From Roseibium sp. TrichSKD4 (GTDB lineage Bacteria; Pseudomonadota; Alphaproteobacteria; Rhizobiales; Stappiaceae): a DNA stretch of 38,593 nt. The notes under the pieces were generated by a model that had not been told where the DNA came from, made no database searches, and was given only the letters and a program-made list of their open reading frames with translations. The position numbers and the translations under genes are program-made. Shown piece after piece: positions 8,396 through 26,143 of this stretch (the stretch's first letter is position 1; the number at the start of each line of letters is the position of its first letter). Location of the stretch: positions 41,318 to 79,910 of the forward strand of contig NZ_GL476319.1 of the NCBI RefSeq assembly GCF_000148725.1. The letters run 5' to 3'.

Positions 8396-9388
8396 GCTGT
8401 GGTGTACTCCGTACTAAACCCCTCTGCAGGTGACCATCTCACCCCCCCCTTAAACTGCCCTTAAGGAATGTGCTGTGGCTTTCCGATAATTTTTAATAAT
8501 TTCAGTCATTTATGTTAGTTTAATTACGCACAAATCACATGACTTCTGAATATTCGACTGCGTTTTCTCCGCAGGAATCGGCCTGTATGGTTTGGACTCG
8601 TTTCAATCTGGGTTCAACGAAATGCAGTCGAGCGCATCCCAACCAAAGGGCCCTTTTCAGAATCAGTGTCAGAATACCCAAGGAGAATCAGCGTGTAGGA
8701 TTCATTCCCGGATTGGCGGGTTTGGGACCCACAAATTGTGCGCATTTTGCCGCACGCCAAAATGTTTTTTCCAGCCACTTGACTTCGATAAACCACGCAA
8801 CTCGCAGCGTATTTGACGTTGCATTTAATACCGCAATAATTCGACCCGACTTTTTCGTCCAATTCGACTTATGATTGGCGTATGAAGTAAAAGTCGCGAG
8901 TTTCCGCGGTTTCTGGTGACCTTTGACTAGGCCTGAAAAGCCACTCTCCCCACAATCCACACACACCCACTATATTTAGCGCTTGCCCACAAGCGATACA
9001 CAACAGGTTGTCATTGGACGCTTGACGGTAAGAATTCATTTACTTTAGTTTCGGTATCGTCAGCGGCGTGGATAGCAGGGGTGAGTAAGCTCTCGTTCCC
9101 GTCAGTTTCAGTAGCTAGTACACGGATATCCCACTTGCCGGAAAGTGTTTTCGGCGGGCGCGGATTTTGTGTGCCGAGTGTTGAGGCACGCCTCTGTAAA
9201 ACCTGTTTATAGACACAATATATAGTAGTCAGTCAGTCACCTGGCGCTATATAGGCTGAAAACAACAGAGCAGCACTCTTCGGCGCGTCTCTACGCGCCA
9301 GCAGGCCAGATGAGCTGCTCAGGCACTTAAAATGTGGCACTTGGCGGTTGGTCTTGTCACCAATCGGGGTTTTAAAAGGGGAAATGGA
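8396..9388. promoter_or_regulatory. Long non-coding interval upstream of nrdJ (993 bases)
   Basis: No convincing gene is present. Reading frames of about 110 codons near 8539-8874 have unlikely composition and no ribosome binding site. The interval should hold the response-regulator promoter on the left and the nrdJ promoter and leader on the right. Candidate NrdR boxes are listed separately. No B12-riboswitch core could be recognised. Confidence 0.55.
9213..9259. promoter_or_regulatory. Candidate tandem NrdR boxes upstream of nrdJ
   Basis: ACACAATATATAGTAG at 9213-9228 closely fits the NrdR-box pattern (acaCwATATATwGtgt). A second, half-conserved copy, GCGCTATATA, begins 31 bases later at 9244. 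A pair of boxes about three helical turns apart is the known arrangement for this ribonucleotide-reductase repressor. They lie about 130-175 bases upstream of the nrdJ start. A third, weaker CACTATATTTAG occurs at 8968-8979. The nrdR gene itself is not in the window. Confidence 0.5.
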
Positions 9389-12300
9389 ATGCGGATCGAA
9401 CGGCGCTACACCAAAGAGGGACAAACACCCTACGCAGACGTCGAATTCCGAACGGCTACGAGTGAGATCCGGAACCCGGACGGGTCTGTTGTGTTCAAAC
9501 TGGACGACATTCAAGTTCCGGCCCAATTCTCCCAAGTCGCTTCCGACATTCTCGCCCAAAAGTATTTCCGCAAGGCTGGTGTTCCCGCGAAGCTGAAGCC
9601 GGTTGAAGAAAACACCGTGCCGTCTTGGTTATGGCGCCACGAGGCTGACGAAAAAGCACTGAAGAAACTCCCCGAAGATCAGCGCTACGGTTCAGAGATT
9701 GATGGCCGCCAGGTTTTTGATCGTTTGGCTGGCACTTGGACCTATTGGGGCTGGAAAGGCGGCTACTTTGACAGTGAGGCCGATGCGCGCGCGTTCTACG
9801 ACGAACTGCGCTACATGCTCGCCACCCAGAAAGTTGCTCCGAATTCCCCGCAATGGTTCAACACCGGTCTGCACTGGGCATATGGCATCGATGGTCCGAG
9901 CCAAGGCCACTATTACGTCGATTATGAAACCGGCAAGCTGACCAAGTCCGCCACCGCCTATGAACATCCGCAGCCCCATGCCTGCTTCATCCAGTCCGTT
10001 GAAGATGATCTGGTAAACGAGAACGGCATCATGGACCTTTGGGTCCGTGAAGCGCGCCTCTTCAAATACGGCTCAGGCACAGGCTCCAACTTCTCGCGCG
10101 TTCGTGGTGAAGGCGAAAAGCTCTCTGGCGGCGGCAAATCCTCCGGATTGATGAGCTTTCTTAAGATTGGCGACCGGGCAGCAGGTGCCATCAAGTCCGG
10201 CGGCACCACGCGCCGCGCAGCGAAAATGGTCGTTGTCGATGTCGATCACCCGGATGTTGAGGAATACATCAATTGGAAGGTGAAAGAAGAGCAGAAAGTC
10301 GCTGCCCTCGTCACCGGCTCCAAAATCTGCCAGAAGCACCTTAGCGCTATCATGAAGGCTTGCGTCAATTGCGAAGCCGACAATGGGGATTGCTTTGACC
10401 CGGCCAAGAACCCGGCCCTGAAGCGCGAAATCCGCGCAGCGAAAAAGATGATGGTGCCGGAAAACTACATCCAGCGCGTCATTCAGTTCGCCCGTCAGGG
10501 GTTCACGAAGATTGAATTCCCGACTTACAACACGGATTGGGATTCCGAGGCTTACCTCACCGTTTCCGGCCAGAACTCCAACAACTCGGTTCGCGTGACC
10601 GACGGGTTCCTGAAAGCCGTGATGACAGATGGGGACTGGGATCTGACAGCGCGCCGCTCAGGCGATGCGATCAAGACCATCAAGGCCAAGGAACTGTGGG
10701 AGCAGATTGGGTATGCTGCTTGGGCATCCGCGGATCCCGGCCTCCAGTACCATACAACCATCAACGACTGGCACACTTGTCCGGCATCCGGCGAAATTCG
10801 CGCGTCCAATCCATGCTCTGAGTACATGTTCCTGGACGACACAGCGTGTAACCTTGCATCCCTGAACCTCATGCAGTTCCGCAACGAAGATCGATCCTTC
10901 GATGTGGAAAGCTACGAACACGCAGTTCGCCTGTGGACCATGGTCCTTGAAGTTTCTGTCTTGATGGCGCAGTTCCCGTCCAAGGAAATTGCAGAGCTTT
11001 CTTACCGCTACCGCACCACCGGTCTAGGCTATGCCAATATCGGCGGCCTGCTGATGACGTCCGGCATTCCTTATGACAGCACAGAAGGCCGCGCCATCTG
11101 TGGAGCGCTGACAGCCATCATGACCGGTGTTGCCTTTGCCACATCTGCTGAAATGGCAGGCGAACTCGGCCCCTTCCCGGGCTACAAGGACAATGCCAAG
11201 CACATGCTGCGTGTCATGCGCAACCACCGCCGCGCAGCGTTTGGCGAAGCATCCGGCTATGAGAAACTGTCCACGGATCCGGTGCCACTTGACCATGCCT
11301 CCTGTGCAGACAAGCGGCTAGTAGAGCGGGCAAAGGCTGCTTGGGACAAGGCTCTGGAGCTTGGAGAAAAGCACGGCTACCGCAACGCTCAAACCACCGT
11401 CATCGCACCGACCGGCACAATCGGTCTGGTCATGGACTGTGATACGACTGGAATTGAACCGGACTTTGCTCTGGTGAAGTTCAAGAAGCTGGCTGGTGGC
11501 GGCTACTTCAAGATCATCAACCGCGCCGTGCCAGAAGCGCTTTCTGTACTGGGCTATTCTGAGAGTCAGATTGCCGAAATCGAGGCTTATGCAGTCGGCC
11601 ACGGGTCTCTCGATCAGGCTCCAGCCATCAACCCGGGTGCTTTGAAGGCCAAAGGCTTTACAGATGAAAGCCTTGCGAAGTTAAAAGGCTCCCTCGGGTC
11701 TGCCTTCGACATCAAGTTTGTCTTCAATCGCTGGACGCTTGGCGATGACCAAATGACAGCTCTTGGTGTTTCCGAAGAGCAGCTCAACGATCCCGAGTTT
11801 GAGCTTCTCTCCTTCCTCGGCTTCTCCAAGGCCGACATTGAGGCTGCTAACACCCATGTGTGCGGTGCCATGACACTGGAAGGCGCGCCTTTCCTGAAGG
11901 AAGAACACTACCCGGTCTTTGACTGTGCCAACCCGTGCGGACGGATCGGCAAGCGCTTCCTGTCGGTTGAAAGCCACATTCGCATGATGGCCGCCGCTCA
12001 GCCGTTCATCTCCGGCGCGATCTCCAAAACGATCAACATGCCGAACGATGCAACGGTCGAAGACTGCATGGAAGCCTACATGCTGTCCTGGAAACTCGCG
12101 CTGAAAGCCAACGCTCTTTATCGCGACGGCTCCAAACTCAGCCAGCCGCTCAATGCCCAGCTTCTGGCAGATGAAGATGAGGACGAGGAAGATGCGGTTG
12201 AGGCATTGGCCGCCAAACCTCAAGCAGCCCGTGCCGAAGTCGTTGCAGAACGCATTGTTGAGCGGATTGTTGAACGCGCTGTTCGCTCTCAGGAAAAACT

Positions 12301-13072
12301 TCCGGGCCGCCGCAAGGGGTACACCCAGAAGGCAAAGATCGGCGGTCACACCATCTTCCTGCGCACTGGCGAATATGATGATGGCCGGCTTGGCGAGATC
12401 TTCCTCGACATGAACAAGGAAGGCTCTGCCCTGCGTGCCTTCATCAACAACTTCGCGATCTCTGTCTCCCTTGGCCTTCAGTATGGTGTGCCGTTGGAAG
12501 AATATGTCGATGCGTTCACCTTCACGAAGTTCGAACCAGCCGGCATGGTCATGGGGAACGATGCGATCAAGAATGCGACTTCCATTCTCGATTACGTCTT
12601 CCGCGAACTGGCTGTTTCCTATCTCGGCCGCCACGATCTGGCGCATGTATCACCGGAGGTCTTCGGCGCTCCTGCAACAGGGCTCTCTGGCGGTGAAGGT
12701 GAAACGAAAGACAGCGGCGTTGTTTCCCACGGCCTCGTACGGGGTCAAACAGAGCGCTTTCGTCTGGTGAACCAGTCCGAAGGGCCGGTTGGGTCCTCAA
12801 CGACAACCGTCACTGCACATGTGGGCAGCTCGCCTGCAGCTCAAACATCGGCTGTTGCGACCGCCTTTGCCCGCGGAGCTGAAGCGGTGAGCGCCGTTGA
12901 AGTCACAAGCGCCCCTGCCCCACAAGCAGCGACCGCAGCCCAGCAGATCGCACAAGCCCGGATGAAAGGCTATGAAGGAGAAAGCTGTGCAGAATGCGGC
13001 AACTTCACCATGGTCCGCAACGGCACCTGCCTCAAATGCGACACCTGCGGCAGCACCAGCGGCTGCAGCTGA
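9389..13072 (+). CDS. nrdJ: Adenosylcobalamin-dependent (class II) ribonucleoside-diphosphate reductase
   Basis: A 1227-residue vitamin-B12-dependent ribonucleotide reductase of the long alphaproteobacterial form. It reduces ribonucleotides to deoxyribonucleotides using a thiyl radical generated from adenosylcobalamin, without oxygen. The start at ATG 9389 follows AAAGGGG; a frame opening at 9332 lacks such a site. NPCSE at residues 474-478 carries the radical cysteine (476) and glutamate; the phosphate-binding APTGTIG loop is at 673-679. An acidic linker precedes the C-terminal part, which ends in a cysteine-rich zinc-ribbon-like tail (CAECGN...CLKCDTCG). The 3' end, highly constrained at protein level, abuts the Tn7-like insertion. 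Confidence 0.97.
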
Positions 13073-13083
13073 CCAAAGTGAGC

Positions 13084-13088
13084 CACTC
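13084..13088. repeat. Target-site duplication, left copy (CACTC)
   Basis: CACTC here is repeated exactly at 35757-35761, immediately outside the other terminus. Five bases is the standard duplication length of Tn7-family transposition. Confidence 0.88.
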
Positions 13089-13113
13089 TGAAGAGGCTAC
13101 TTAGGTTTGTCTC
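13089..13113 (+). repeat. Left terminal inverted repeat of the Tn7-like element
   Basis: The 25 bases starting TGAAGAGGCTACTTAG match the reverse complement of 35732-35756 at 20 of 25 positions, with mismatches at positions 3, 5, 10, 17 and 24. The shared core is GGC-n-ACTTAG-n-TTTGTC. Confidence 0.88.
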
Positions 13114-13156
13114 GAAGGCGACTTTTGTGTCTCCAGAGCGACCTAAGGATTGTCTC
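13095..13156 (+). repeat. Left-end array of three candidate TnsB binding sites
   Basis: Three head-to-tail units of about 20 bases each begin GGC/GCGAC and end TGTCTC: 13095-13113, 13117-13133 and 13138-13156. The TGTCTC hexamers recur at 13108, 13128 and 13151, spaced about two helical turns apart. Identification as TnsB sites is by position, repetition and presence of the same motif at the other end. Confidence 0.75.
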
Positions 13157-13177
13157 TGACAGTTGAAAAGAAGAAAT

Positions 13178-13197: not shown

Positions 13198-13356
13198 TTG
13201 CATGAAACAGGTACGAATTGATACCTGATAAAAGTGCGACAGGCGCCGTCGCGCCAATGGTTGCCAGATTTGGGTCGGCCCATGTCCTCCCAGTCCCGAG
13301 TCGCATAGGATGGCCAATTCACGCCAATAAACGGCTCAAACGGCCGACAACAAGAA

Positions 13357-13387
13357 AACCCGCCCATCGGAGACGATTGGGCGGGTT
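13357..13387 (-). terminator. Terminator of the CHAT gene, near-copy of the displaced chromosomal terminator
   Basis: AACCCGCCCA pairs with TGGGCGGGTT (10 bp) plus an inner TCG/CGA. On the minus strand it is followed by TTTTCTTG, fitting intrinsic termination of the CHAT gene ending at 13401. The 31-base core differs by a single base from the terminator at 35877-35907 outside the other end of the element. The rest of 13198-13356 shows no gene or strong motif. Confidence 0.8.
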
Positions 13388-13400: not shown

Positions 13401-15527
13401 TCAAGTAAGCAATACAGGGCAACCCCAGTTTACAATACTGGTCAGGTCCTCTCCTGATCGACGCAATCGATCAAGCATGTCATCACATCCCAGATATCGG
13501 TCCTCTAAAAAGGTGTTTAATTGCTGGGGATCGGCAAGCATTTGAGCAGCTTCGAGGGCCGCCTGTTCCGGTAGGGCATCCTCCAATCGGGCGGCAAGCG
13601 CAGCACCGAACGCAAGACCGGTGGTCCAATGTACAGGCCAAAGATGGCCCACAACAGCTTGATGGCCTGAGACGAGGCTCTGCGCCAACCCAATTCGCGA
13701 AAGACCACCGCGCATCTGAGCAGACGCTCCGCTACAGCTGTTAAGAACTAATAGACGCCTTCCATCGGTCGGGATCCTCCAACCACGGATCTCCTCAAGA
13801 TTGATTAATGTCTCATCTGGCATATGCAGCCCACTGCCTCCGACAGCAAACGGATCGTGAGTGCCGTGCGAGATTACCCAGACTACATCTGCCTCATCAT
13901 TTTCATAAAATCGCCGCAGGTCATCACGAGTGGGATTCGCTGATCCATGCAGATCGACTCCCCACCCCGAGCGTTCGGCCACATGACGGATCGCGTCAAT
14001 TTCAAACCTCTCGTGCAACGGGCCTCCAGCCCAAACCGCAATTCGTCGGATTGGCCGTGATGGAAATGCAGACTGGAAACTAATCTCCAAAGGTGCAGCC
14101 ACATTCGCATACCTTGCAAGCATCGCCTGCAAAGGCTCAGGGCCACTCGGGAAGATCAGAACGGACCTTGGTGCCCAATCCGCCGGGAGGCGCTCCCTAA
14201 GCTCCTCGAAACGATAATGTGCCGCCATTGCTTCTTCTAAGCGAGGTCCTGCGGAGGCATCAATAACATCGAAGCGAATGTCCTCGTATCTATCTGGTGA
14301 ATGGTCACCATCGCCCCCACGAAAGTATGATCCTAGAGCCGTACTAGCGGCACGCTGCAAGTCGTCATAGGTGGCCGTGTCCCCCGTTCCGGTTAACCAA
14401 CTACCGCCAGGCCAAAGATAAGCAGCTCCCCCATTGTGGGTTGGAACCAAAACCAATAGTTCCGCTTCGGATGGCTCTACATTATTCGCTCGATACCAAG
14501 CACCAAGTACAACTATGACATCATCAATTTCGCCCCAGTTTACGAGAGCAAAAATCAATGGGTTAAGAACTACGGCCCGCAGCTCTAGCACTTCCAGGTC
14601 AGATTCACCGGACCGCAGATTTGCGAGGTATGAAGCTCGAAGCCTCGATATTTCTTCCAAAACTTCTGCTCGACGAGATCGCCAATCTTCTACCCCCTCA
14701 ATTGCAACCGCTAGAGCTTGGAGACGTTCATGTTCGACCATCACCGAGCCCCATTCGGATAGTGCTCGCGCAGCCCACTCCTGTGGCGTCCCTTCAACAA
14801 AGCGGTTTGCCTGGGTGGTAAAAACCATCGCAATGTCAAGCTTATTCCGAAGCGACTGCGTCCGCGCGGCAGTATCGACCAGATCGGCCGCCCAGTTCAC
14901 GCTAGCTGGCCAATCAATGTATGCCGCCCAAATAACCATCTGGGACATAGCTTCAACTGGTCCGCGCTCCGCCGGATTTTGTCTTTGAATGCTAGAAACG
15001 ACTCTCCAACATGCGGGAGCCACGTCGGCCGTGAGTTCATCCAGGCCACCAAATCGGTAGGCTACATAGAAACAGGCCCCTGCGAATTCCGATACATCCT
15101 GCAAATAGCGATTGAACAAGTTTCGCGGAGCGTGCGGAAAATTTAGAAAGGTGTAAGTGTTATTGTTGACACGCTGATTTCGATCATGCGTTGGAGAAAC
15201 GGCGGTCCAGATCCAATCGTAGCACGGCCCCAACTGTCCGGCTGCCCTTGTGGCATAGACTGCCGGCATACAGGTGACAAAACGTGCACAATCGATAGCG
15301 TCGGTTTCTACTGCTGTGCCTGCTAAAGTACGGGCATTGTGCAGGTCAGCGACCAATGCATCTGTCCAGGCCCAAAAATCCGGCAAATACTCCATACGCG
15401 CAACTTGAAGAGTCCAGAGCGCTTCCAACAAGTCGATATCGGGGTTTGACCACGAGAAAGGCTCCTCCCAATTGAGAGTGTCTTGATCGAGCATAAACGT
15501 CTGAAGGAAAGCATTTTCCAGCGTCAT
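13401..15527 (-). CDS. CHAT-domain (caspase-like) protease
   Basis: A 708-residue protein. The C-terminal ~250 residues form a CHAT domain of the caspase/separase clan: catalytic His554 in VVWVISHGTH and Cys598 in LLVLNSCSGA, followed by the conserved VVGHLWPVHW segment. The N-terminal ~450 residues are helical with many tryptophans and no recognised domain; they may act as a sensor or repeat scaffold. CHAT proteins serve as suicide or signalling proteases in several bacterial immune systems, usually triggered by partner proteins, but here no partner gene is in the same transcript. It is the first cargo gene next to the left end and is transcribed toward nrdJ. Immune role is inference from domain and island context. 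Confidence 0.85.
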   Translation of the reverse strand: MTLENAFLQTFMLDQDTLNWEEPFSWSNPDIDLLEALWTLQVARMEYLPDFWAWTDALVADLHNARTLAGTAVETDAIDCARFVTCMPAVYATRAAGQLGPCYDWIWTAVSPTHDRNQRVNNNTYTFLNFPHAPRNLFNRYLQDVSEFAGACFYVAYRFGGLDELTADVAPACWRVVSSIQRQNPAERGPVEAMSQMVIWAAYIDWPASVNWAADLVDTAARTQSLRNKLDIAMVFTTQANRFVEGTPQEWAARALSEWGSVMVEHERLQALAVAIEGVEDWRSRRAEVLEEISRLRASYLANLRSGESDLEVLELRAVVLNPLIFALVNWGEIDDVIVVLGAWYRANNVEPSEAELLVLVPTHNGGAAYLWPGGSWLTGTGDTATYDDLQRAASTALGSYFRGGDGDHSPDRYEDIRFDVIDASAGPRLEEAMAAHYRFEELRERLPADWAPRSVLIFPSGPEPLQAMLARYANVAAPLEISFQSAFPSRPIRRIAVWAGGPLHERFEIDAIRHVAERSGWGVDLHGSANPTRDDLRRFYENDEADVVWVISHGTHDPFAVGGSGLHMPDETLINLEEIRGWRIPTDGRRLLVLNSCSGASAQMRGGLSRIGLAQSLVSGHQAVVGHLWPVHWTTGLAFGAALAARLEDALPEQAALEAAQMLADPQQLNTFLEDRYLGCDDMLDRLRRSGEDLTSIVNWGCPVLLT

Positions 15528-15759
15528 TATTGTGAACCTATTCGGATGAAAAATGGTGGGTAGAGCAGTGCTCCAAGTCGCATACGGTGGCTATTTGAAA
15601 CCGTTCGGGATCAGCAGGTTTGTCGACAACTAAGATTGGTTTACTGTAGACCGATGTTATTCTTCACCGCCCCCCGATGAAATGATCGCAAACGTCCACG
15701 TCGGAGTCTTTTAGCTTGACGCTTACGCAAGAAAAATCGTTGGAAATCCCAGCATAGTT
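15528..15759. promoter_or_regulatory. Intergenic region upstream of the CHAT gene
   Basis: 232 bases between two genes transcribed leftward. It should carry the CHAT promoter, and it also follows the DUF2779 gene, but no convincing hairpin, operator or short gene was recognised. Confidence 0.4.
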
Positions 15760-17184
15760 TCAATCTCCCTTCACCAGCCCCTCAACGAACTGAAAGATCC
15801 GGACCATCGCAAGTGTATCGAGCTTGCAGTACTCCAAGAGGGCCCGTCGCAATCGCGCCTGCTTTTCCCGGTCGGTTTCGTTGATCATCTTGTTCCAGCC
15901 ATCCATTGCGGCTGTCCCGTCGCCAATCTCCATTCCCTCGTAGCTGAGATCAGGCACCACGACGGGAAGAACCTTCTTGATGGATGTCGATCCGTTGAAA
16001 CGGATATCGACGTATCCCGTTTTGAAGACATCCATAAGGTCAACGGTTCGCTCCACAAGGCCAAGAAGGAAATCCCGATTTTCGGGGAATGCGTTTGCCA
16101 TTTCGTTGTTTCGAGCGTTCTCGAACGTCTTGTTCCAGGTGATGATGGATCCGTTCGCACCGATGGCACCTTCTAGGGCTTTCACCAGATGACGCGGGAG
16201 TTCCGGCCGATCAGCCAGATATTCGATATGATCGAGCCGACCATCTTCGTGTAGGATATGGAGCGAAAACTGAAACGGTAACTGCTGTTGCGGCCCAGTT
16301 CCATTAACGATTGGGATTGCGGAAAGGTATGTTTCATAATCCAGAAAATAGAGCGGATAGGCCAGAACACCGATGAAGTTCTTAATGTCGGCGATGTCTA
16401 TGAATGGGTTCTCGACGTTGCTTGCCCGGACAATCGGCTGTTGAAGGCGTGAAACCTCTTCGAGTTCGATCTGCTCCAGTCCAAACCGTCCCTCTGCGAC
16501 AAATTTCTCGAGCTTCCTGCCAAACAACCGAGGTAGCGAGTAAATTGAGTATTCTGGAATGCCCGGATTGAAGTAGTCGAAACTGTCGCAGTGATGAGAA
16601 CGACTGAGGTTCAAGCAGTTACACGAGCGCTCATCAATAGCCGCTTCATTGAGGAGTGAAAGCGCCTCAGTTATTTCCTGCTCTGTTTCGTCCAACAAGC
16701 CTTTCACCCGAACGGTTTCATCGGCAAAGACGAGGAGCTCCCCAGGATCGATCTCGCCATCACGGGTGTAATCCTTGTTCAAGTGAACGATGAAGATGTT
16801 CCGGATGCCGCGCCCTGCCCGTGTAGCTGCGATCGTCTGAAACGCGGCATCCTTCAGCTGATTATGCGGATTCCCATCCTTCACACTGGTAGAGGACTTG
16901 ATCTCGAAGATATCGATCGTCCCATCCTCGTTTTCCCGAAGCATGTCGACACGGGCATGGAGGCCCTCATTCGTCTCGAATACATCCTGGAACGAACAGG
17001 AAGCGGCATCGGGCCACCCCTGCACCAACTGGCGAACATATCCCTCGACCTGGTAGCCTTCTTCGGCCAATTTCTGGGCAAAATCGGAAAACTCGCCCTC
17101 TGGATAAACCTCCGGCTTGTGCTGTTTCAGCCAGAGCGATTTTGGGCAATTCAGATACTGGATAAAATCAGTTTTCGATAACAT
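15760..17184 (-). CDS. DUF2779 protein: Cas4/RecB-like nuclease fused to DEDD-like exonuclease domain
   Basis: A 474-residue protein; ATG 17184 is chosen because the typical DUF2779 N-terminus (MLSKTDFIQYLNCPKSLWL) starts there and AAGGG precedes it. Residues 1-200 look like a Cas4/RecB PD-(D/E)XK domain: Asp80, Glu94-x-Lys96 and Gln109, with Cys13 plus Cys188, Cys190 and Cys199 placed like the Fe-S cysteines of Cas4/AddB. Residues 275-470 look like an RNase H-fold exonuclease: FLDYET (Asp282, Glu284), an ITWNKTFEN block at 348-356, and Asp456 in YCKLDTLAM. The protein may therefore carry two nuclease centres. Its biological role is not established; it is divergent from the type I restriction operon and may cooperate with it. 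Confidence 0.8.
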   Translation of the reverse strand: MLSKTDFIQYLNCPKSLWLKQHKPEVYPEGEFSDFAQKLAEEGYQVEGYVRQLVQGWPDAASCSFQDVFETNEGLHARVDMLRENEDGTIDIFEIKSSTSVKDGNPHNQLKDAAFQTIAATRAGRGIRNIFIVHLNKDYTRDGEIDPGELLVFADETVRVKGLLDETEQEITEALSLLNEAAIDERSCNCLNLSRSHHCDSFDYFNPGIPEYSIYSLPRLFGRKLEKFVAEGRFGLEQIELEEVSRLQQPIVRASNVENPFIDIADIKNFIGVLAYPLYFLDYETYLSAIPIVNGTGPQQQLPFQFSLHILHEDGRLDHIEYLADRPELPRHLVKALEGAIGANGSIITWNKTFENARNNEMANAFPENRDFLLGLVERTVDLMDVFKTGYVDIRFNGSTSIKKVLPVVVPDLSYEGMEIGDGTAAMDGWNKMINETDREKQARLRRALLEYCKLDTLAMVRIFQFVEGLVKGD

Positions 17185-17441
17185 GTCACTACCCTTAAGA
17201 CTCAAGGTACAAAGGCGATAAACAACCAAGGAGGATTGGCCGAACCAACATGCCATTCGATCACAACAAAGATCCTGCACACCCCTTTCGAACCGGAACC
17301 TTTTCAGCCTCCTCCAGGGCAACCTGAAACAACTTGGCAGGCAGATTACTCGCTTTGCCAACGCAACCAAAGTTTGCAATAACAATGCGACACCAATCGC
17401 AGACTCTGGCAGGGAAATATCTTTGGGAAGACAACGACATA
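17185..17441. promoter_or_regulatory. Divergent promoter region between the DUF2779 gene and hsdM
   Basis: 257 bases separate the divergently transcribed genes and should carry both promoters. No clear palindrome or regulator-like C-protein gene was seen, so control of the restriction operon is not evident. Confidence 0.45.
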
Positions 17442-19610
17442 ATGATTTCTGATCACCTGACTGACATCGAGCAATTCGACGCTGAACTCTGGACGATAGC
17501 CGACAATCTGCGAGCCAATTCCGGCCTCGCTTCGAACGAGTATTTCATGCCCATCATGGGCCTTTTGTTCCTTCGTCAGGCCACCAACCGCTACTACGAA
17601 GCACTCGCCGCCATCGAGGCGGAGAAGGCAAACGGGAAGATGCCGGATCGCCCGCTCCGGGACGTAGACTTCACTCGTCGCCGGGCCATGATGCTGCCGG
17701 AAGCCGCCCGCTATGATGTGATCCTCGACCAGCCGAAAGATGGCAGCCTCGGCGAAGCTCTGACTGCCGCTATGGAAGCCGTTGAAGAGCACTTTCCACC
17801 GTTGGCCGGACAGCTCCCCAAGGACTACGAGCGGTTCGATGACGAACTACTGGAAAGCATGATGCGCAAGTTCGACACCGAGGCTCTGCGCAAGGCATCT
17901 GGCGACGTTTTCGGCCGCATCTACGAGTACTTCCTGGCAGAGTTTTCCAAACAGGGTGCCCACGATAACGGCGAGTTCTTCACACCGCCCTCTATTGTCC
18001 AGACGATCGTCAACGTGATCGAGCCGGACCACGGTATCATCTTTGATCCGGCCTGCGGCTCAGGCGGGATGTTCGTCCAATCAAGCCACTTCATCGAGCA
18101 TGAAGGCAAGGACACGATGAAGCGCGTCACTTTCTACGGCCACGAAAAGAACGAGACGACCGCCAAACTGGCGCAGATCAACCTCGCTGTACATGGCCTT
18201 CAGGGTTCCATCCAGGCAGGAAACGAAGCCATAACCTACTACAAGGATCCGCATGAGCTGATCCAGCATGACAAGAATGCAGATCGGGTGATTGGTAAGT
18301 GTGACTTTGTCATGGCCAATCCGCCCTTCAATGTGGACGAAGTCGACGCTGAGAAGGTGAAGAACGACCCGCGCCTCCCCTTCGGTCTACCTGGGGTGAA
18401 CAAGGCGAAGAAGGTCTCTAACGCCAACTTCCTTTGGATGTCCTACTTCTACAATTATCTGAAGGATACCGGGCGGGCTGGTGTGGTCATGTCATCTCAG
18501 GCGTCCAGTGCGGGCCGCGATGAGGCGAAGGTCCGGCAGAAGCTCGTGGAGACGGGCGCCGTCGATGTCATGATCGATATCCGCGGCAACTTCTTCTACA
18601 CGCGGACGGTTCCCTGTCAGCTCTGGTTCTTTGATCGGGCAAAGGAAGCAGATGAGGCGCGCAAGGACCACGTCCTGATGCTCGATGCGCGGAACATCTA
18701 TAGGAAAGTGTCCCGGGCCATTTATGACTTCAGCCCTGAGCAGCAGAAAAACATTGCCGCGATTGTGTGGCTGTATCGGGGTCAGTCCGATCGCTTCTTG
18801 GAACTGGTGGAAGCCTACCTGGCCGAGGCGATCGCAAAAGGTCAGGCAACCACGGAGCCCTTCACTGCGTTCGAAGACAGGCTGGCCAAACTGATCAATT
18901 TGATGGCGCCCTTTGCGACGGAGGCGCGCGATCCCGATCCACTGTCTGAAACCTGGACCGAATTGGCAGCCACCCAGGCAACGCTGAAGCAAGACATTGC
19001 AGCATACGGGGTCGAAGTCGTTGCCCGGGCGAAGGAGTGGGAAAGCAGCGCAAATGGCAGGAGCCGGGATAATGCGACACTTCACGCGGCACGGGAAGGC
19101 CTCCATGCGATAGCTGACCAATGCCGTGATCTGACCAAACAGATCGACCTGGCGGCGAAGCTTGCAGGCCGTGTTGCTGATGTGGCGATGCAGGAGCTGG
19201 AGGCGCGTGACTCCGATCTCTGGAACAATACCGAGATCAACAAGGCCAAGCGTGCGCTCAATGGCACGAACAAGGACAACGATCACGGTGCAAGGGGCGA
19301 CGTGGTCGAGGCGCTGCGTCAGGCGCGGTATTTCGTCAAACAGGCCGACTGGCTCCAAGAACGTTTCCCCGATGCGATGCTGTGTGATGTCGAGGGGCTA
19401 GTAAAGCTGGTCAACCGTAGGGAGATCGAAACCCATGACTGGAGCCTGACACCGGGGCGTTATGTCGGTGTGGCGCCTGAAGAGGTTGACGAAGATTTCG
19501 ACTTCGAGGAGGCGCTGCGCTCGATCCACATCGACCTCAAGGGCCTTAACGAGGAGGCGACGGATCTGGCGGCACGGATAACCCGGAACTTCGAGGAGTT
19601 GGGGGTATGA
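17442..19610 (+). CDS. hsdM: Type I restriction-modification system DNA methyltransferase (M) subunit
   Basis: A 722-residue N6-adenine methyltransferase. ATG 17442 is chosen because the HsdM N-terminal domain begins there (ISDHLTDIEQFDAELW). The AdoMet-binding motif I, FDPACGSGG, is at residues 201-209 and the catalytic NPPF at 293-296; a KVSNANFLWMSYFYNYL block follows. With HsdS it forms the modification complex that marks host DNA and prevents self-cleavage. It is longer than the ~500-residue EcoKI-type subunit: residues ~470-720 form an extra helical, charged region of unknown role. Its stop overlaps the hsdS start by 4 bases (ATGA), so translation is coupled. Confidence 0.95.
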   Translation: MISDHLTDIEQFDAELWTIADNLRANSGLASNEYFMPIMGLLFLRQATNRYYEALAAIEAEKANGKMPDRPLRDVDFTRRRAMMLPEAARYDVILDQPKDGSLGEALTAAMEAVEEHFPPLAGQLPKDYERFDDELLESMMRKFDTEALRKASGDVFGRIYEYFLAEFSKQGAHDNGEFFTPPSIVQTIVNVIEPDHGIIFDPACGSGGMFVQSSHFIEHEGKDTMKRVTFYGHEKNETTAKLAQINLAVHGLQGSIQAGNEAITYYKDPHELIQHDKNADRVIGKCDFVMANPPFNVDEVDAEKVKNDPRLPFGLPGVNKAKKVSNANFLWMSYFYNYLKDTGRAGVVMSSQASSAGRDEAKVRQKLVETGAVDVMIDIRGNFFYTRTVPCQLWFFDRAKEADEARKDHVLMLDARNIYRKVSRAIYDFSPEQQKNIAAIVWLYRGQSDRFLELVEAYLAEAIAKGQATTEPFTAFEDRLAKLINLMAPFATEARDPDPLSETWTELAATQATLKQDIAAYGVEVVARAKEWESSANGRSRDNATLHAAREGLHAIADQCRDLTKQIDLAAKLAGRVADVAMQELEARDSDLWNNTEINKAKRALNGTNKDNDHGARGDVVEALRQARYFVKQADWLQERFPDAMLCDVEGLVKLVNRREIETHDWSLTPGRYVGVAPEEVDEDFDFEEALRSIHIDLKGLNEEATDLAARITRNFEELGV

Positions 19611-20680
19611 CTTCCTATCTCGGGTCAAAACATTGGGCGCCAGCCGTCTTGCAAGACTTAGTGTTCTTGCAAAGAGGATTTGATATTACCAAGGCACAGC
19701 AGAAAAAAGGCGAAGTTCCCGTTTTCTCGTCCTCTGGGCTCAGCAGCTGGCACAATGAGGCTAAAGTCCAGGGACCGGGAATTATTATCGGTCGCAAGGG
19801 AACACTGGGCAGCGTTCACTATTCTGACGGCGATTACTGGCCCCATGACACAACACTATGGAGCAAATCTCTCAACGGAAACAATCCCCGTTTCGTCTAC
19901 TTCGCGCTAAAGTGTTTGGGCTTAGAGCGGTTCAATGTGGGTGGGGCCAACCCGACGCTAAACCGAAATCACATTCATGGGCTTCCGATACATCTGCCAG
20001 AACGAGACGCGCAAGACCGGATCGTCTCCATCCTCTCCACTTACGACGACCTGATCGAAAACAACCGACGGCGGATTGCGCTGTTGGAGGAAGCGGCGCG
20101 GCTGCTTTACCGCGAGTGGTTCGTCCACCTCCGCTTCCCCGGCCATGAACACATTCCGATCACCGATGGCCTCCCGGAGGGATGGGAAAGACGGACATTC
20201 GGTAAAGTAGCCGAATTGAAGTATGGCAAGGCCCTGAAAAAGGAAAACCGTGTCGAGGGACCGTTTCCAGTCTATGGTTCCAGCGGTATTGTCGGCACAC
20301 ACCAAAAGGCCTTAGTCGAAGGACCAACGATCATAATTGGGCGCAAGGGTAACGTTGGGAGCGTTTTCTGGTCACCTGCCGATTTCTGGCCGATCGATAC
20401 GGTTTACTTCATCCCAAAAGATCAGGCGGACTTCTGGCTCTACCTCGCGCTGCCATCAGCAGGTTTCCAGAATACGGACGCGGGAGTGCCCGGCTTGAAC
20501 CGCGATTTCGCCTATAGCCGAAAGCTTGTTCAGCCTAAAGAGAGGCTCCGTCGGCATTTCAACGAAGCTGTCGAGCCGATGTTCGCACAACGCGCGAGGC
20601 TGGAGGCATACAACGAAAAACTCTCACAAGCCCGGGACCTTCTCCTGCCGCGCCTGATGAACGGGGAGATCACAGTGTGA
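19607..20680 (+). CDS. hsdS: Type I restriction-modification specificity (S) subunit
   Basis: A 357-residue protein with the usual two-repeat layout: target recognition domain 1 (about 1-135), conserved coiled-coil spacer (140-185, with RIVSILSTYDDLIENNRRRI and YREWFVHLRFPGHE), target recognition domain 2 (about 190-315) and a second helix ending LLLPRLMNGEI. Both recognition domains share a GPxIIIGRKGxxGSV segment. It would dictate a bipartite DNA target for both methylation and restriction; the target cannot be predicted here. It is somewhat short for an S subunit. The ATG overlaps hsdM and the stop overlaps the next gene, each by 4 bases. Confidence 0.94.
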   Translation: MTSYLGSKHWAPAVLQDLVFLQRGFDITKAQQKKGEVPVFSSSGLSSWHNEAKVQGPGIIIGRKGTLGSVHYSDGDYWPHDTTLWSKSLNGNNPRFVYFALKCLGLERFNVGGANPTLNRNHIHGLPIHLPERDAQDRIVSILSTYDDLIENNRRRIALLEEAARLLYREWFVHLRFPGHEHIPITDGLPEGWERRTFGKVAELKYGKALKKENRVEGPFPVYGSSGIVGTHQKALVEGPTIIIGRKGNVGSVFWSPADFWPIDTVYFIPKDQADFWLYLALPSAGFQNTDAGVPGLNRDFAYSRKLVQPKERLRRHFNEAVEPMFAQRARLEAYNEKLSQARDLLLPRLMNGEITV

Positions 20681-21522
20681 TTGTAAACGATGAAACCATT
20701 CCCGAATACCTGCGTGCCGAACTGGAAAGTGAGACCGCAAGTTTAAAATCAACGAAATTTAGCTTGCCGGAGATCAGCAACCGTGATCGTGCTCTGTTCC
20801 TGATTGGCGAACCCGACCTGGAAGCCCAACTGATCGCGATCAAAGGCATGTTGAGGCGGCATGCCGAAACAGAGCAACTCGTCTCAAAGAAAATCAAAGA
20901 GCTTGATGCCCGGACCCGCGCCTACGCCGGGGCCAGCGATGAATACCAGCAACACCTGGAAGATCAGTGGGTCGACGCAATACACTGGTCGGTTTTCCAG
21001 GATGCCGCACATAGCATGTCAGCTGTTGGCATGTTGGCGCCCTTTGTTGAGTCTCTGTTCGTGTCCGTGTTCCGTGGACTGCGCAGGCAGCTTCATGAAG
21101 ATACCGCCAACGATCCACGCACCGCAGCCACCCAAGACCAATACTGGAACCCGCAGATTGTGTACCGTAAGGACGGCCAAAAGGATGATGTCGTCGCTGG
21201 GATCAATCAGCTCGCGATATCGACGGGTCTCCACAACTACCTTCCCGGGGAATACCAGAAGACGCTTTCGGCTCTTTTCGGCTATCGTAACAATATGTTC
21301 CACAACGGGTTCGAATGGCCGCCAGAAACACGTCAGAGATTTGCCCAACGTATCGCAAGCGGAGAATGGCCAAGGAGTTGGTTCTCACAGGCCACCCGTA
21401 ATGACGAACCATGGATCTTTTACATGAGCGATGAATCCATTGCTCATTGCCTAAAAATGATTGACCAAGTACTTGACGGTGTGGGTGAATATATTACTCA
21501 ACCAAAAGGCGATTTAACTTGA
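20677..21522 (+). CDS. Unknown protein with HEPN-like RX4H motif, embedded in hsd operon
   Basis: A 281-residue protein starting at GTG 20677, overlapping the hsdS stop (GTGA), so it is tightly coupled to the restriction operon. I do not recognise a named family. It is predicted to be mainly helical and soluble, and contains YRNNMFHNG (Arg204-x4-His209) in an alpha-helical C-terminal half, which fits the RX4-6H catalytic signature of HEPN ribonucleases. Type I loci can host such RNases (PrrC-type anticodon nucleases are HEPN proteins encoded beside hsd genes), but no PrrC/RloC ATPase domain is present here. The proposal of an RNase back-up is an inference from one short motif and the gene position. 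Confidence 0.75.
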   Translation: MIVNDETIPEYLRAELESETASLKSTKFSLPEISNRDRALFLIGEPDLEAQLIAIKGMLRRHAETEQLVSKKIKELDARTRAYAGASDEYQQHLEDQWVDAIHWSVFQDAAHSMSAVGMLAPFVESLFVSVFRGLRRQLHEDTANDPRTAATQDQYWNPQIVYRKDGQKDDVVAGINQLAISTGLHNYLPGEYQKTLSALFGYRNNMFHNGFEWPPETRQRFAQRIASGEWPRSWFSQATRNDEPWIFYMSDESIAHCLKMIDQVLDGVGEYITQPKGDLT

Positions 21523-21547
21523 ACTGATTTCGTCGAAGAGGGATTGC

Positions 21548-24500
21548 ATGGCCGTCACAGGCATCAACAGTGAAGACCGTCTGGTTCAGAAAACCTTCGC
21601 CGACCACCTTGAACAGGCACTCAACTGGGAAAGCATTTACGCTTTCAACAAGGAGACTTTCGGTGCCGGCGGCACCCTGGGGCGAAAGGACACCAGGGAA
21701 GCGATTCTGACGCGCGACCTGCGAGAAGCCCTGATCCGCCTAAACCCGGACCTACCGAACAAGGCCATCGACCATGCCATACGGGAGCTGACCGTCTATG
21801 ATGTCAGTCGTTCTCTGGTTCAGCACAATCGCGACTTTTACCGCCTCATTCGCGGCGGCGTTCAAGTCACCTATAAGGACAAAAACGGCAGACAGAAATC
21901 CGCTCGCGCCAGGGTCATTGATTTCGATAATGCTCCCGGTTCGAACCGCTTTCTCGCGGTGCGCGAACTGAAACTGACCGGAATCCGGACCCCTAATTAC
22001 AATCGCAGGGCGGATCTGGTCTGCTTCATCAACGGCCTGCCTATCGTATTTATCGAGTTGAAGGCGGTTTATAGGAATATCCGCGAGGGTTTTGACAACA
22101 ACCTCTGTGACTACATGGACGAGAATGTCATCGCCCATGCCTTTCATCACAACGCCTTTCTGATCGTCTCTAACGGCGATCGCGCCCGCTATGGCTCCAT
22201 CACCAGCACCTGGGAGCATTTCAACGAGTGGAAGCGGCTCGACGAGGATGACAAAGGCAGCGTGGACGCTGAGAAACTATTGAACGGCATGCTGGCCCAT
22301 GATCGCCTGCTCGATCTCCTCGAAAACTTCATTCTCTTTGACGCGAGCAAGGCCGGCACAACCCGAAAGGTCGTTGCACGAAACCATCAGGTGCTGGGCG
22401 TAAACCGTGCTGTTGCTTCCGTGGTACACCAGGAAGCAATCAAGGCAGACTTGCCCGACGGCCAGAGGCTCAAACACCGGGTGGTTGAGCTCCCTCTGGA
22501 GCGGAAAGCCCCAGCCAGGCGCAAGGCCAAAGCCGATGATGCAAAGTTGGTCGAAGCCAAGGCGGCTCTCCCATCCTTCGTTCCAGACGGCCCTGTCGAC
22601 CTCATCGAGCGGGCCCATCCCGATCTTGGACGGCTCGGTGTGTTCTGGCACACCCAAGGCAGCGGCAAGTCTTATTCCATGGCCTTCTTTTCGGAAAAGG
22701 TCCGTCGCAAGGTTCCTGGCAACTTTACGTTCCTCCTGATGACCGATCGGCAGGATCTCGACAGCCAGATTTACAAGACTTTCGTGGGCTGCGGGATTGC
22801 GGGAGAAGACACGCCCCGCGCATCCTCCGGCAATGAGCTGGAAAAGGTCCTGAGGGAAAACCATCAGTACGTTTTCAGCCTGATCCACAAGTTCAACAAG
22901 AACGTCAATCCAGAGGAGCCATACAGCAAACGCGATGACATCATAGTGGTTTCCGACGAAGCCCACCGGACGCAGGCAGGACGGCTCGCCCGGAACATGC
23001 GTCTGGCCCTGCCGAATGCCGCCTTCATCGGTTTCACCGGAACGCCGCTGTTCAAGCAGGACGAGATCACCAAGCGGATCTTTGGAAACTATGTGTCGCG
23101 CTACAACTTCAAGCGCTCCGAAGAGGATGGTGCGACAGTCAAGCTGGTCTATGAAAATCGAGGAGAGAAACTCGGTGTCGCCCGGACGGACCTGAACGAT
23201 CAGATCGCGGCGAAAATAGAAGAGGCGGAGCTGGATACGGATCAATCAGCCTTGCTCGACAAATTGTTGGGCAAGGACTACGAGATCATCACCGCCGATG
23301 AACGCCTGGATAAGATCGCTGCCGATTTCGTCGAGCATTACTCAACGCGCTGGGAGTCCGGAAAGGCCCTTTTCGTCTGCATCGACAAGATTACCTGTGC
23401 TCGAATGTTTCAGCGTATTATCCCCCGGTGGAAGACCAAGGCCACCGAGATCCGCAGGGCCGAACAGGCTAAACGCGCGGAGGCGAAGGCTGCAACAGAT
23501 CCGCAGATCCAGGTACAGCTGAACGATGAGGCGGTGGAGCTGAAGCGCCAGGCTGACTGGATGGATGAGACCATCATCGAGATCATCATCAGCGAAGCCC
23601 AAAATGAAGTTAAAGACTTCAAGAAATGGGGCTTCGACATCATCCCCCATCGAGAATTGATGAAACAGGGTTTCGAAACGGAAGGCGGTGATCGTGTCGA
23701 TGTTGAGAGCGCCTTCAAAAACCCCAAGCATCCGTTCCGGATAGCGATTGTATGCGCCATGTGGCTTACAGGGTTCGACGTGGAGAGCCTCACGACACTC
23801 TACCTCGACAAGCCCATGAAGGCGCACACGCTTATGCAGGCTATCGCCCGCGCAAACCGCGTATTTCCGGGTAAGGATTTCGGCCTGATCGTCGACTACA
23901 ACGGCATGCTGAAAAGCCTTCGGGAAGCCCTAGCTCAATACGCGCTGGGTGATGACGGGTCAGGCGAAGAAGAAATCGTCGCGCCGATCGAAGAAAGGGT
24001 GCAGGCACTGATAGAAGCGTTGGAAGCGACCGAGGCCCATTTGAAGGGCCTTGGCTTCGATCCATCGACCTTGACTGGATCGACGGGGTTCGCCCGGATC
24101 CGGGGCATCAGGGATGCCGTGGACGCAGTTTACACAACGGATGAAACCAAACGGCGATTTGAAGTGATGGCCCGCCAGGTGTTCACGCGCTTCAAGGCCC
24201 TTCTCATGGAACCGACGGCCTTTGCCTATGCCGAACGGCACGACAACATTGAAGCTATTTACAAGAAGCTGACCGAGCGGCGGGATACTGCCGATGTCAC
24301 GGAACTGCTGAAGGAATTGCATCGTATCGTCAATATCGCAATCCAGACGCAAGCCCCAGGGGGTGACCAGGCCGAGGGCCTGACGTTTGACCTCAGTAAG
24401 ATCGACATGGAGCGGCTGCGTGATGAATTCGCCAAGAAGGTTCATCACAAGGCAACCGCCATCCAGGACATACGAGACATCGTCGAAGCAAAGATCGCGC

Positions 24501-24979
24501 AGATGCTAGCCCGCAACTCCACTCGGATGGATTACCAGATCAAATACGAAGAGATCGTCGCCGCCTACAATGCCGACAAAGATCGCGTCAGTGTGGAAGA
24601 TACCTTCCGGCGCCTGACTGAACTCATGAATGAGCTTGACGAGGAACAAAAACGCGCCGTCGAAGAGGGGCTGGATGAAGACGAACTCGCCATGTTCGAT
24701 CTTCTGAAAAAGAACGACCTGACAAAAGCAGACCGCGAGAGGGTCAAACAAGCCAGTCGCGACCTCCTGACCGCGATCAAGGACCAATTGGCAAAACTCG
24801 ACCACTTCTGGGAAAAAGAGCAGACCAAGGCGGAAGTCAAGACGTTCATTCTCGACAATGTCTACATGAACTTGCCGACACCTCCGTTCTCAAACGAAGA
24901 CAAGGAAGCCTTGGCCGAGAGCGTCTATGCCCATGTCTGGCAGCAGGCCGTCAGTGGGGGCTTTGCGACTGCGGCGTGA
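21548..24979 (+). CDS. hsdR: Type I restriction-modification endonuclease/translocase (R) subunit
   Basis: A 1143-residue HsdR. The N-terminal PD-(D/E)XK nuclease has Asp156, Glu170 and Lys172 (RADLVCF...IELKA). The SF2 translocase follows, with Walker A GSGKS at residues 371-375 (HTQGSGKSYSM), DEAH at 470-473, GFTGTPL soon after, and the second RecA domain (ANRVFPGKDFGLIVDY near 770-785). The C-terminal third is helical and charged and would dock on HsdM/HsdS. It cleaves unmodified DNA at a distance after ATP-driven translocation. ATG 21548 follows AGAGGG and lies 25 bases after the HEPN-like gene, so the whole set is one operon and appears intact. Confidence 0.96.
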   Translation: MAVTGINSEDRLVQKTFADHLEQALNWESIYAFNKETFGAGGTLGRKDTREAILTRDLREALIRLNPDLPNKAIDHAIRELTVYDVSRSLVQHNRDFYRLIRGGVQVTYKDKNGRQKSARARVIDFDNAPGSNRFLAVRELKLTGIRTPNYNRRADLVCFINGLPIVFIELKAVYRNIREGFDNNLCDYMDENVIAHAFHHNAFLIVSNGDRARYGSITSTWEHFNEWKRLDEDDKGSVDAEKLLNGMLAHDRLLDLLENFILFDASKAGTTRKVVARNHQVLGVNRAVASVVHQEAIKADLPDGQRLKHRVVELPLERKAPARRKAKADDAKLVEAKAALPSFVPDGPVDLIERAHPDLGRLGVFWHTQGSGKSYSMAFFSEKVRRKVPGNFTFLLMTDRQDLDSQIYKTFVGCGIAGEDTPRASSGNELEKVLRENHQYVFSLIHKFNKNVNPEEPYSKRDDIIVVSDEAHRTQAGRLARNMRLALPNAAFIGFTGTPLFKQDEITKRIFGNYVSRYNFKRSEEDGATVKLVYENRGEKLGVARTDLNDQIAAKIEEAELDTDQSALLDKLLGKDYEIITADERLDKIAADFVEHYSTRWESGKALFVCIDKITCARMFQRIIPRWKTKATEIRRAEQAKRAEAKAATDPQIQVQLNDEAVELKRQADWMDETIIEIIISEAQNEVKDFKKWGFDIIPHRELMKQGFETEGGDRVDVESAFKNPKHPFRIAIVCAMWLTGFDVESLTTLYLDKPMKAHTLMQAIARANRVFPGKDFGLIVDYNGMLKSLREALAQYALGDDGSGEEEIVAPIEERVQALIEALEATEAHLKGLGFDPSTLTGSTGFARIRGIRDAVDAVYTTDETKRRFEVMARQVFTRFKALLMEPTAFAYAERHDNIEAIYKKLTERRDTADVTELLKELHRIVNIAIQTQAPGGDQAEGLTFDLSKIDMERLRDEFAKKVHHKATAIQDIRDIVEAKIAQMLARNSTRMDYQIKYEEIVAAYNADKDRVSVEDTFRRLTELMNELDEEQKRAVEEGLDEDELAMFDLLKKNDLTKADRERVKQASRDLLTAIKDQLAKLDHFWEKEQTKAEVKTFILDNVYMNLPTPPFSNEDKEALAESVYAHVWQQAVSGGFATAA

Positions 24980-25027
24980 AACCATTTATGACGTTTATGG
25001 TGTCTTCCAAGCCAGATCCTGGAGCGC

Positions 25028-25495
25028 CTAGGTCATCAAGTTTGAGTGCTGTGTAAAACGCGTTGTGATCCCCCAGGACTGCAATGCCCAAACCCCGTCA
25101 ACGCCTTCTTCGATGGAGAAATAGAAATCCTTCGGCAGCCCGAGCTCAAAGCTCCGCAGCATGTCCGAGAACTGTGCTCGTGTGACAGATATTGTCATGC
25201 TCAGCAGTCTCGCTCGATGTTCCTGCTGAAAGTACCCTGCACTACGTCTATCCTTCGCCAACTGCGTAGGCGCGATGATCATTACCGTAGCTGGCCACCG
25301 GAAGTCGTCACCGTCCTTCTTGATGGTGGCTGTAAGGATCATGTAGGAAAACTCCACCGTCTGTTTTGGCGGTCCATCCTGTACTTGCTGCCCGAATTGG
25401 ATGGAACTGATCCCAACGATCTCGCCTGTCCAGTCGCCCGGTTCGATAGCTCGCCGCGACTGTTGCTTGTTCTTCCTGACGGTTTTCTTTCCCAT
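25028..25495 (-). CDS. Uncharacterised cargo protein, divergent from PIN gene
   Basis: A 155-residue protein not assigned to a family. ATG 25495 is chosen, with GGAATA about 10 bases upstream; a TTG at 25513 in the same frame would add six residues. The N-terminus is strongly basic (GKKTVRKNKQQSRR). The middle alternates hydrophobic and polar residues in a beta-rich pattern (VEFSYMILTATIKKDGDDF, ATVMIIAP). It converges on hsdR with 48 bases between stops and is divergent from the PIN-domain gene, sharing a 108-base regulatory region with two palindromes. It could be a partner or regulator of the PIN protein, but nothing in the sequence proves this. Confidence 0.6.
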   Translation of the reverse strand: MGKKTVRKNKQQSRRAIEPGDWTGEIVGISSIQFGQQVQDGPPKQTVEFSYMILTATIKKDGDDFRWPATVMIIAPTQLAKDRRSAGYFQQEHRARLLSMTISVTRAQFSDMLRSFELGLPKDFYFSIEEGVDGVWALQSWGITTRFTQHSNLMT

Positions 25496-25511
25496 ACCAA
25501 TATTCCGAGCC

Positions 25512-25531
25512 AATTGTATTTTTTTACAATT
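25512..25531. promoter_or_regulatory. AT-rich inverted repeat, candidate operator
   Basis: AATTGTA and TACAATT flank a run of six T residues (7+6+7). It sits 17 bases upstream of the start of the leftward uncharacterised gene, where a promoter or operator would be expected. Confidence 0.45.
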
Positions 25532-25555
25532 TTATCGACCCCGTTAACCTTTTGT

Positions 25556-25569
25556 CCGGATTAATCCGG
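25556..25569. promoter_or_regulatory. Perfect 14-bp palindrome, candidate operator
   Basis: CCGGATTAATCCGG is a perfect palindrome 34 bases before the PIN gene start. Together with the AT-rich repeat at 25512-25531 it suggests a controlled divergent promoter, as in toxin-antitoxin modules. Confidence 0.45.
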
Positions 25570-25603
25570 AAAAACCGGTCCTGTCGAGTCGCAGGAGGCC
25601 GGA

Positions 25604-26125: not shown

Positions 26126-26143
26126 CAAGAAAAGGAGAACGAA

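Follow-up and report, generated by a model that had tools for sequence, protein, structure and literature searches.

A Tn7-like element sits directly behind nrdJ in Roseibium sp. TrichSKD4, which raises the question of whether the 3′ end of this gene is a site that such elements seek out or a place where one of them happened to land. We analyzed a window of 38,593 nucleotides (the whole stretch, positions 41,318 to 79,910 of contig NZ_GL476319.1) and consider it very likely that the element is a Tn7-like TnsABC-TniQ transposon homing to the nrdJ 3′ end. Roseibium belongs to the Stappiaceae, within the Hyphomicrobiales, and the host NrdJ is closest to the NrdJ proteins of Roseibium, Labrenzia, and Stappia. 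The gene and the boundaries of the element are as follows.

9332–13072, + strand: nrdJ, class II B12-dependent ribonucleotide reductase (Pfam, open reading frame), with its 3′ end as the attachment site
12998–13072, + strand: last 75 bp of nrdJ, encoding a cysteine-rich tail; putative TniQ recognition region, from conservation
13073–13083: 11-bp spacer from the nrdJ stop to the duplication
13084–13088: target-site duplication CACTC, nrdJ side
13089–35756: Tn7-like element, 22,668 bp (paired ends and duplication)
13089–13165, + strand: end toward nrdJ, by convention the right end; transposase-binding-like repeats are packed, at offsets 6, 20, and 40
35638–35756, − strand: far end, by convention the left end; repeats are gapped, at offsets 6, 82, and 105
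35757–35761: target-site duplication CACTC, far side

The product of nrdJ matches the Pfam families Ribonuc_red_lgC (E 7e-126), Ribonuc_red_2_N (E 6e-45), and TSCPD, and its TGA stop occupies 13070–13072. The element begins 16 nt beyond the stop, after the spacer and the 5-bp CACTC, and the 11 bases that the earlier note had counted between stop and duplication are correctly placed. The inverted ends are identical at 20 of 25 positions and terminate in TGT at the far end and TGA at the nrdJ-facing end; TGT/ACA termini are typical of Tn7-like elements, not universal (PMC11406308; here and below, this review, PMC2918618, and PMC10293859 are cited for parts of their text). The whole window was searched for inverted TG..CA ends separated by 3–60 kb, requiring an exact 5-bp duplication and agreement at 19 or more of 24 end positions; 13089/35756 was the sole qualifying pair, and five mononucleotide shuffles of the window yielded none. 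Inside each element end are two copies of the 14-bp motif GTCTCN4GCGAC, in opposite orientation. These four hits are all that the window contains, and a separate set of 100 shuffles gave a mean of 0.09, with four hits reached in none. The copies are predicted to form arrays of putative transposase-binding repeats at both ends.

The transposition genes form an operon in the order tnsA-tnsB-tnsC-tniQ, which lies at the element end away from nrdJ and is transcribed away from it, with tniQ last.

29515–30255, + strand: tnsA-like gene (homologues in the same operon position; 26% identity to an annotated TnsA)
30252–32510, + strand: tnsB, DDE transposase (PDB TnsB, E 1.6e-30)
32485–33633, + strand: tnsC, TnsC/TniB AAA+ ATPase, start codon uncertain (Pfam TniB, E 1.3e-12; PDB VchTnsC, E 0.0014)
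33600–35480, + strand: tniQ, 626 aa, sole target selector found (Pfam TniQ, E 1.6e-15)

The TnsA-like protein of the window did not itself match the Pfam TnsA family, and four of four tested homologues matched PF08722 below its cut-off. It carries an arginine at the position of the family's lysine, which is retained in 20 of 24 aligned proteins; the same arginine is present in L088, L134, and L140 (four of 24 with the window) and may alter the mode of excision. The closest PDB entry to TnsB is an I-F3-type TnsB. The earlier note had read a single long TniQ/TnsD-like protein from the element, and one tniQ is what was found; nothing else in the window was noticed as a target selector, TnsE having been outside the search. 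All 12 aligned relatives match Pfam TniQ as well. A PDB search with the window TniQ alone gave no match at E 0.1, and a 12-row TniQ profile reached TnsD at E 0.079 only. Residues 513–541 of TniQ match a helix-turn-helix weakly, below the cut-off of that family.

The cargo occupies the region between the nrdJ-facing end and tnsA.

13401–15527, − strand: CHAT-domain protein, BovA of PADLOC (Pfam CHAT, E 4.7e-14; PADLOC BovA, E 9e-186)
15760–17385, − strand: DUF2779 protein with a weak Cas4-like nuclease match
17334–19610, + strand: HsdM, type I restriction-modification methyltransferase
19607–20680, + strand: HsdS, type I specificity subunit
20677–21522, + strand: cargo protein without a family match
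21548–24979, + strand: HsdR, type I restriction subunit
25604–26125, + strand: PIN-domain-like protein, below the curated cut-off
26643–28718, + strand: AAA ATPase with an M41-like peptidase domain, IetA-like in PADLOC

Defense-like genes are abundant in this cargo (13401–28718), including the BovA-like CHAT protein, the type I restriction-modification system, and the IetA-like AAA protein with its M41-like domain. Among the ten cargo proteins no cas genes were recognized beyond the one weak Cas4-like match, no direct repeats of at least 20 bp within 120 bp of one another were present in the element, and Rfam gave no match in the window. A CRISPR-guided element was rejected on the repeats and the cargo, in which neither the CRISPR array nor the Cas effector of CRISPR-associated transposons (CASTs) was seen.

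In order to follow the element family beyond the window, 80 nrdJ loci were collected, and the TniQ family was present in 25 of 79 of their genomes. Twelve long TniQ proteins were aligned, and samples were searched around Labrenzia sp. THAF82 (G001) and Mesorhizobium sp. ES1-4 (G034). TniQ matches at E 1e-10 occurred in 28 of 397 genomes of the order. At E 1e-30 they occurred in two of 385 genomes of the class (G001 and G804 only), in 10 of 87 of the family of G001, and in 50 of 346 of the family of G034. Genomes whose sole TniQ was of the short kind were left out, and nrdJ was found in 39 of 40 and 40 of 43 of the TniQ-bearing genomes checked. A peptide-pattern scan with the single TniQ protein as query gave no match in genome or viral contigs, and the 12-row alignment gave none in viral contigs.

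Recurrence at nrdJ was assessed by comparing the nrdJ flank with the sequence behind the tniQ of the same genome, in search of a shared 5-bp duplication beside TG-starting inverted ends. A pair counted as positive if the duplication was perfect and 15 or more of 24 end positions matched; 5–85 nt after the stop were scanned, and one orientation was looked for. The test was anchored on the duplication because end similarity alone separated true and unrelated flanks poorly, with unrelated flanks scoring as high in 4 of 78 cases for the window and 6 of 77 for G001. Sixteen of 67 pairs were positive, corresponding to 16 of 55 genomes (window included), compared with one of 4087 mismatched genome pairs. 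At a score of at least 17, ten true pairs and no control pair were retained, and with the stop-to-element gap capped at 30 nt the result was 15 true pairs against 0 of 4087 controls. Eight of the positive pairs were on different contigs, seven shared a contig, and the remaining pair is that of the window itself; many assemblies in the sample are fragmented, and in the eight split pairs the duplication joins elements that the assemblies had broken up.

The stop-to-element distances in the 16 pairs were 12, 15, 15, 15, 16, 18, 18, 19, 20, 20, 20, 24, 24, 24, 25, and 41 nt, which places the first element base 12–25 nt past the nrdJ stop in 15 of 16 and at 41 nt in one (G977). The earlier note had proposed the nrdJ 3′ end as a Tn7-like attachment site, to be checked by whether elements with related TniQs end at one constant distance from it. 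The site does recur for this TniQ group, by duplication pairing as well as by contig linkage; the single fixed distance gives way to a narrow range. The weakest positives are G977 and five pairs at 15/24. Three near misses were kept outside the 16, namely G003 (duplication off by 2 nt, by eye), G1099 (14/24), and G848 (12/24). The other 51 of 67 pairs, including those of 11 of 19 contig-linked genomes, gave no perfect duplication with similar ends. G1021, a twelfth contig-linked genome, was unusable in the main test, and a separate attempt gave no pair; the nrdJ flanks of G062, G893, G1004, G1005, G1186, G1190, and G1216 were used as controls only, with their TniQ unpaired.

Contig linkage is independent of the end sequences. 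All 19 tniQ genes of the group that share a contig with nrdJ lie downstream of it on the same strand, 22–115 kb away. Seven of these are also among the 16 duplication-paired genomes, and linkage adds 12 further ones. In these linked cases insertion is in one orientation beside a conserved gene; as to the reverse orientation, no homologue of the window Tns or TniQ proteins was found within up to 10 kb behind nrdJ at the 80 loci. Ten same-contig tniQ cases were not linked to nrdJ. Three of them fall outside the group in the tree (G421, G926, and G1033), and the remaining seven either match weakly or in part or were not placed in the tree (G1004, G1173, G276, G284, G310, G392, and G447). The most serious exception is G1173, whose TniQ match is short but fairly strong (E 4e-108) and located 146 kb from nrdJ on the opposite strand. 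G072 is ambiguous, with tniQ outside the group and 95 kb downstream of nrdJ on the same strand.

In the TniQ tree, from which three short TniQs were dropped (G398, one of G209, and G1173), all 16 paired rows, along with 13 that were marked as linked, fall within 58 of the 67 rows, and none fall in the other nine. The 13 comprise the 12 contig-linked genomes and the near miss G1099, in which tniQ and nrdJ are on different contigs. We speak of a group rather than a proven clade because the tree is midpoint-rooted and its deep forks are weak. The window TniQ, at most 30–31% identical to the others and on a long branch, is placed with seven others at a support of 95/94. Three of these are paired at nrdJ (G1105, G922, and G1195), three are contig-linked (G1071, G909, and G456), and the seventh, G1136, has a G1195-like end behind nrdJ as judged by eye only. 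Adding three plasmid TniQs dissolved this supported placement. Relatives of the TniQ also occur on plasmids (48 records). L243, L244, and L245 have a related tniQ on large alphaproteobacterial plasmids, L244 together with annotated TnsA, transposase, and ATPase genes, and such plasmids may act as transfer vehicles.

Any single insertion might land anywhere, and a one-off, untargeted Tn7-like or Tn5053-like insertion could have fallen behind nrdJ by chance. With 16 paired genomes (window included), 12 further genomes contig-linked at nrdJ, and what is probably a second element at this site in the window, this reading is extremely unlikely, and chance insertion was rejected on the recurrence at nrdJ by both pairing and linkage. 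Nor does the element fit the Tn5053 family in its targeting: TniQ there is aimed at plasmid resolution sites, and here the nrdJ site recurs.

Targeting of nrdJ leads to the question of what is being read there. Across 137 distinct sequences, the final ~75 bp of nrdJ are highly conserved, in line with the conserved cysteine-rich coding end that had been pointed out from the window alone, and conservation drops to ~0 bits immediately past the stop. Within these 75 bp, codon positions 1 and 2 are mostly near 2 bits and position 3 is lower. The binding site of TnsD in Tn7 is the final 36 bp of the glmS frame, where variation is mostly at wobble positions, and insertion occurs ~20 bp past the glmS stop (PMC2918618). 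Because the wobble-type conservation ending at the stop resembles that of TnsD and glmS, we infer that nrdJ is read by TniQ itself, with the conserved end of the coding region as the sequence recognized. The long, TnsD-like TniQ would bind the conserved last codons, presumably via its C-terminal part, where the weak helix-turn-helix match is located. It would then recruit or position TnsC and subsequently TnsAB, which would insert the element in a fixed orientation, usually 12–25 bp past the stop, with a 5-bp duplication and no damage to nrdJ.

The nrdJ end could also be the site and yet be read by something other than TniQ alone, such as a structure at the nrdJ terminator, a guide RNA, or a partner protein comparable to TnsF at comM. 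Binding of TniQ to nrdJ is a prediction, and some Tn7-like elements do work with guide RNAs or with a partner, TnsF in the case of Tn6022 (PMC10293859, PMC11406308). Against such a reader, the TniQ is long, and a small TniQ is the hallmark of elements with additional selectors (PMC10293859); the lack of close direct repeats, of Rfam matches, and of cas genes beyond the weak Cas4-like match speaks against a guide RNA, and the nearly unconserved sequence past the stop speaks against a terminator cue. On balance we regard another reader as unlikely, and direct reading by TniQ is the reading we retain.

The direction in which the element faces its target is informative in comparison with Tn7. By convention, the right end is the one upstream of the transposition genes; in Tn7 it contains overlapping TnsB sites and the TnsD-read sequence lies outside it, and many Tn7-like elements tend to have their end with overlapping sites turned toward the attachment site (PMC11406308). 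Here, the nrdJ-facing end lies upstream of tnsABC-tniQ. With repeat motifs picked by eye, repeats were readable at both ends in five of the 16 elements, packed at the nrdJ-facing end and with a gap of ~70–90 bp at the far end; six elements showed only the terminal repeat at each end, and five went without a search. Repeat offsets at the nrdJ-facing end are 6, 20, and 40 in the window and 12 and 32–33 in G014, G020, G034, and G944. At the far end they are 6, 82, and 105 in the window, 12, 84–85, and 107–108 in G014, G020, and G034, and 12 and 108 in G944. The orientation of the element agrees with that of Tn7, and the position of the cargo differs. The earlier note had held that, unlike in Tn7, the cargo end faces the target; cargo does adjoin the nrdJ-facing end, but an orientation opposite to Tn7 does not follow, since that end is by convention the right one.

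The element shares with Tn7 the tnsB and tnsC genes, preceded here by the tnsA-like gene, and a long TniQ/TnsD, a 5-bp duplication, and a right end toward the target gene (PMC11406308), as well as insertion about 20 bp past the stop of a conserved gene in which variation at the coding end falls mostly on wobble positions (PMC2918618). Unlike Tn7, its target is nrdJ and not glmS, its cargo separates the nrdJ-facing end from tnsA, and its proteins are distant; it is not Tn7 proper, which inserts through TnsD behind glmS. TniQ-targeted sites are also used by CASTs, for example parE by the I-F3 element Tn7017 and tRNA genes by types I-B2 and I-D (PMC11406308, Table 1). The nrdJ element resembles these in TniQ-family homing to a conserved gene and in a TnsB that is nearest to the I-F3 type in the PDB, but no CRISPR-Cas system was seen, the target is nrdJ, and tnsA and tnsB are separate, in contrast to the fused TnsAB of I-B2 and I-D. 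Tn6022 inserts within comM using TniQ and a TnsF partner (PMC10293859). It is likewise Tn7-like with a fixed chromosomal gene target, whereas in our case nrdJ is left intact and no partner protein was seen.

A sub-clade of three TniQs (G1137, the second copy of G944, and G1197; support 100/100) is associated with purH. Its elements have nrdJ-type ends 38–39 nt past the purH stop. In G1137 (L216/L237–L239), duplication and ends pair at 16/24, in a 40-kb scan that also scored 15 at chance-looking places. In G944 (L199/L231–L233), a single contig carries both purH and tniQ, 24 kb from each other, and in G1197 (L217/L240) the end behind purH is on a contig other than that of tniQ; no duplication was found for these two purH elements. 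G944 holds two elements, one paired at nrdJ and one linked to purH. A comparison of purH and nrdJ TniQs hinted at residues ~240–360 and ~540–600 as the most group-specific, a signal too weak for a claim. We lean toward a broader picture in which a large group of single-TniQ Tn7-like elements in the Hyphomicrobiales homes, by protein only, to nucleotide-synthesis genes at their 3′ ends. The main target would be nrdJ, one sub-clade having been re-aimed at purH; each type would keep its own distance, and elements would stack at the site. If true, this would provide a natural series for working out the DNA-reading code of TniQ.

No report of nrdJ or purH as a Tn7-like attachment site was found in a search of the main texts of open-access papers. 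The main texts of PMC10293859 and PMC8649781 contain neither "ribonucleotide" nor "nrd", PMC11406308 lacks "ribonucleotide", and open literature naming both nrdJ and a transposon makes no mention of such a site in the portions of text available. The review names few chromosomal Tn7-like sites: glmS, parE, and tRNA genes, which are read by TniQ, comM, which requires a partner, and yhiN, for which the means is unknown (PMC11406308). nrdJ appears to be a new attachment site for a Tn7-like transposon, although an earlier listing in some table is possible. Together with the purH sister group, a site used by many diverged TniQs offers matched pairs of TniQ and target DNA, which serve for asking how TniQ reads DNA and switches target without a guide RNA. 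For transposons able to carry defense genes, the nrdJ end is a natural docking site. In Hyphomicrobiales it is in addition a boundary marker by which transposon cargo can be located, and its elements are candidate homing systems, guided by protein, for engineering the genomes of nrdJ-bearing bacteria.

The nrdJ site of the window has probably been used more than once.

35763–35832, + strand: probable start of a second, older Tn7-like element (local alignment, z 12.6–14.1)
13293–13387, + strand: probable relic of the end of another element type, with a hairpin terminator (local alignment; terminator repeat)

The sequence from 35762 onward resembles that directly behind nrdJ in G995, G1116, and G1170, and sequences past the nrdJ stop are otherwise unconserved among flanks. 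The tniQ of G1170 is contig-linked to nrdJ; no duplication was found in any of the three genomes, and their flanks are read as putative element ends from the alignment. Furthermore, 13293–13377, ~200 bp inside the element, resembles an end type that occurs right behind nrdJ in Labrenzia/Roseibium-type genomes (best seven G898, G003, G893, G896, G002, G869, and G437, z 24–50), and this type is confirmed as an element end by pairing in G898, G896, G002, and G437. The element was thus probably inserted directly beside an older one and probably carries a relic of a third. Two different element types, probably stacked at one nrdJ, bear on target immunity between types only. The hairpin terminator of the relic recurs at 35877–35907, just beyond the far end, with 97% identity.

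Several end types behind nrdJ, distinguished by eye, might suggest that the region is a general safe harbor for many kinds of element, which would make adjacency uninformative about this TniQ; a copy of the nrdJ 3′ end in G939, which Tn7-type insertion alone does not explain, can be cited in the same sense. In opposition to this, the TniQs are of one group, insertion is 12–25 nt past the stop in 15 of 16 with paired duplications, the linked elements are co-oriented, and the sister sub-clade sits at purH instead. We judge a general safe harbor to be very improbable and keep to homing by this TniQ group. The copy in G939 (L210, L164, L241, and L242) is 236 bp long, 99.6% identical, and located on the far side of an island, ~107 kb from the intact gene. 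To the right of the window element, an open reading frame at 37427–37912 matches the C-terminal half of IS630-family transposases.
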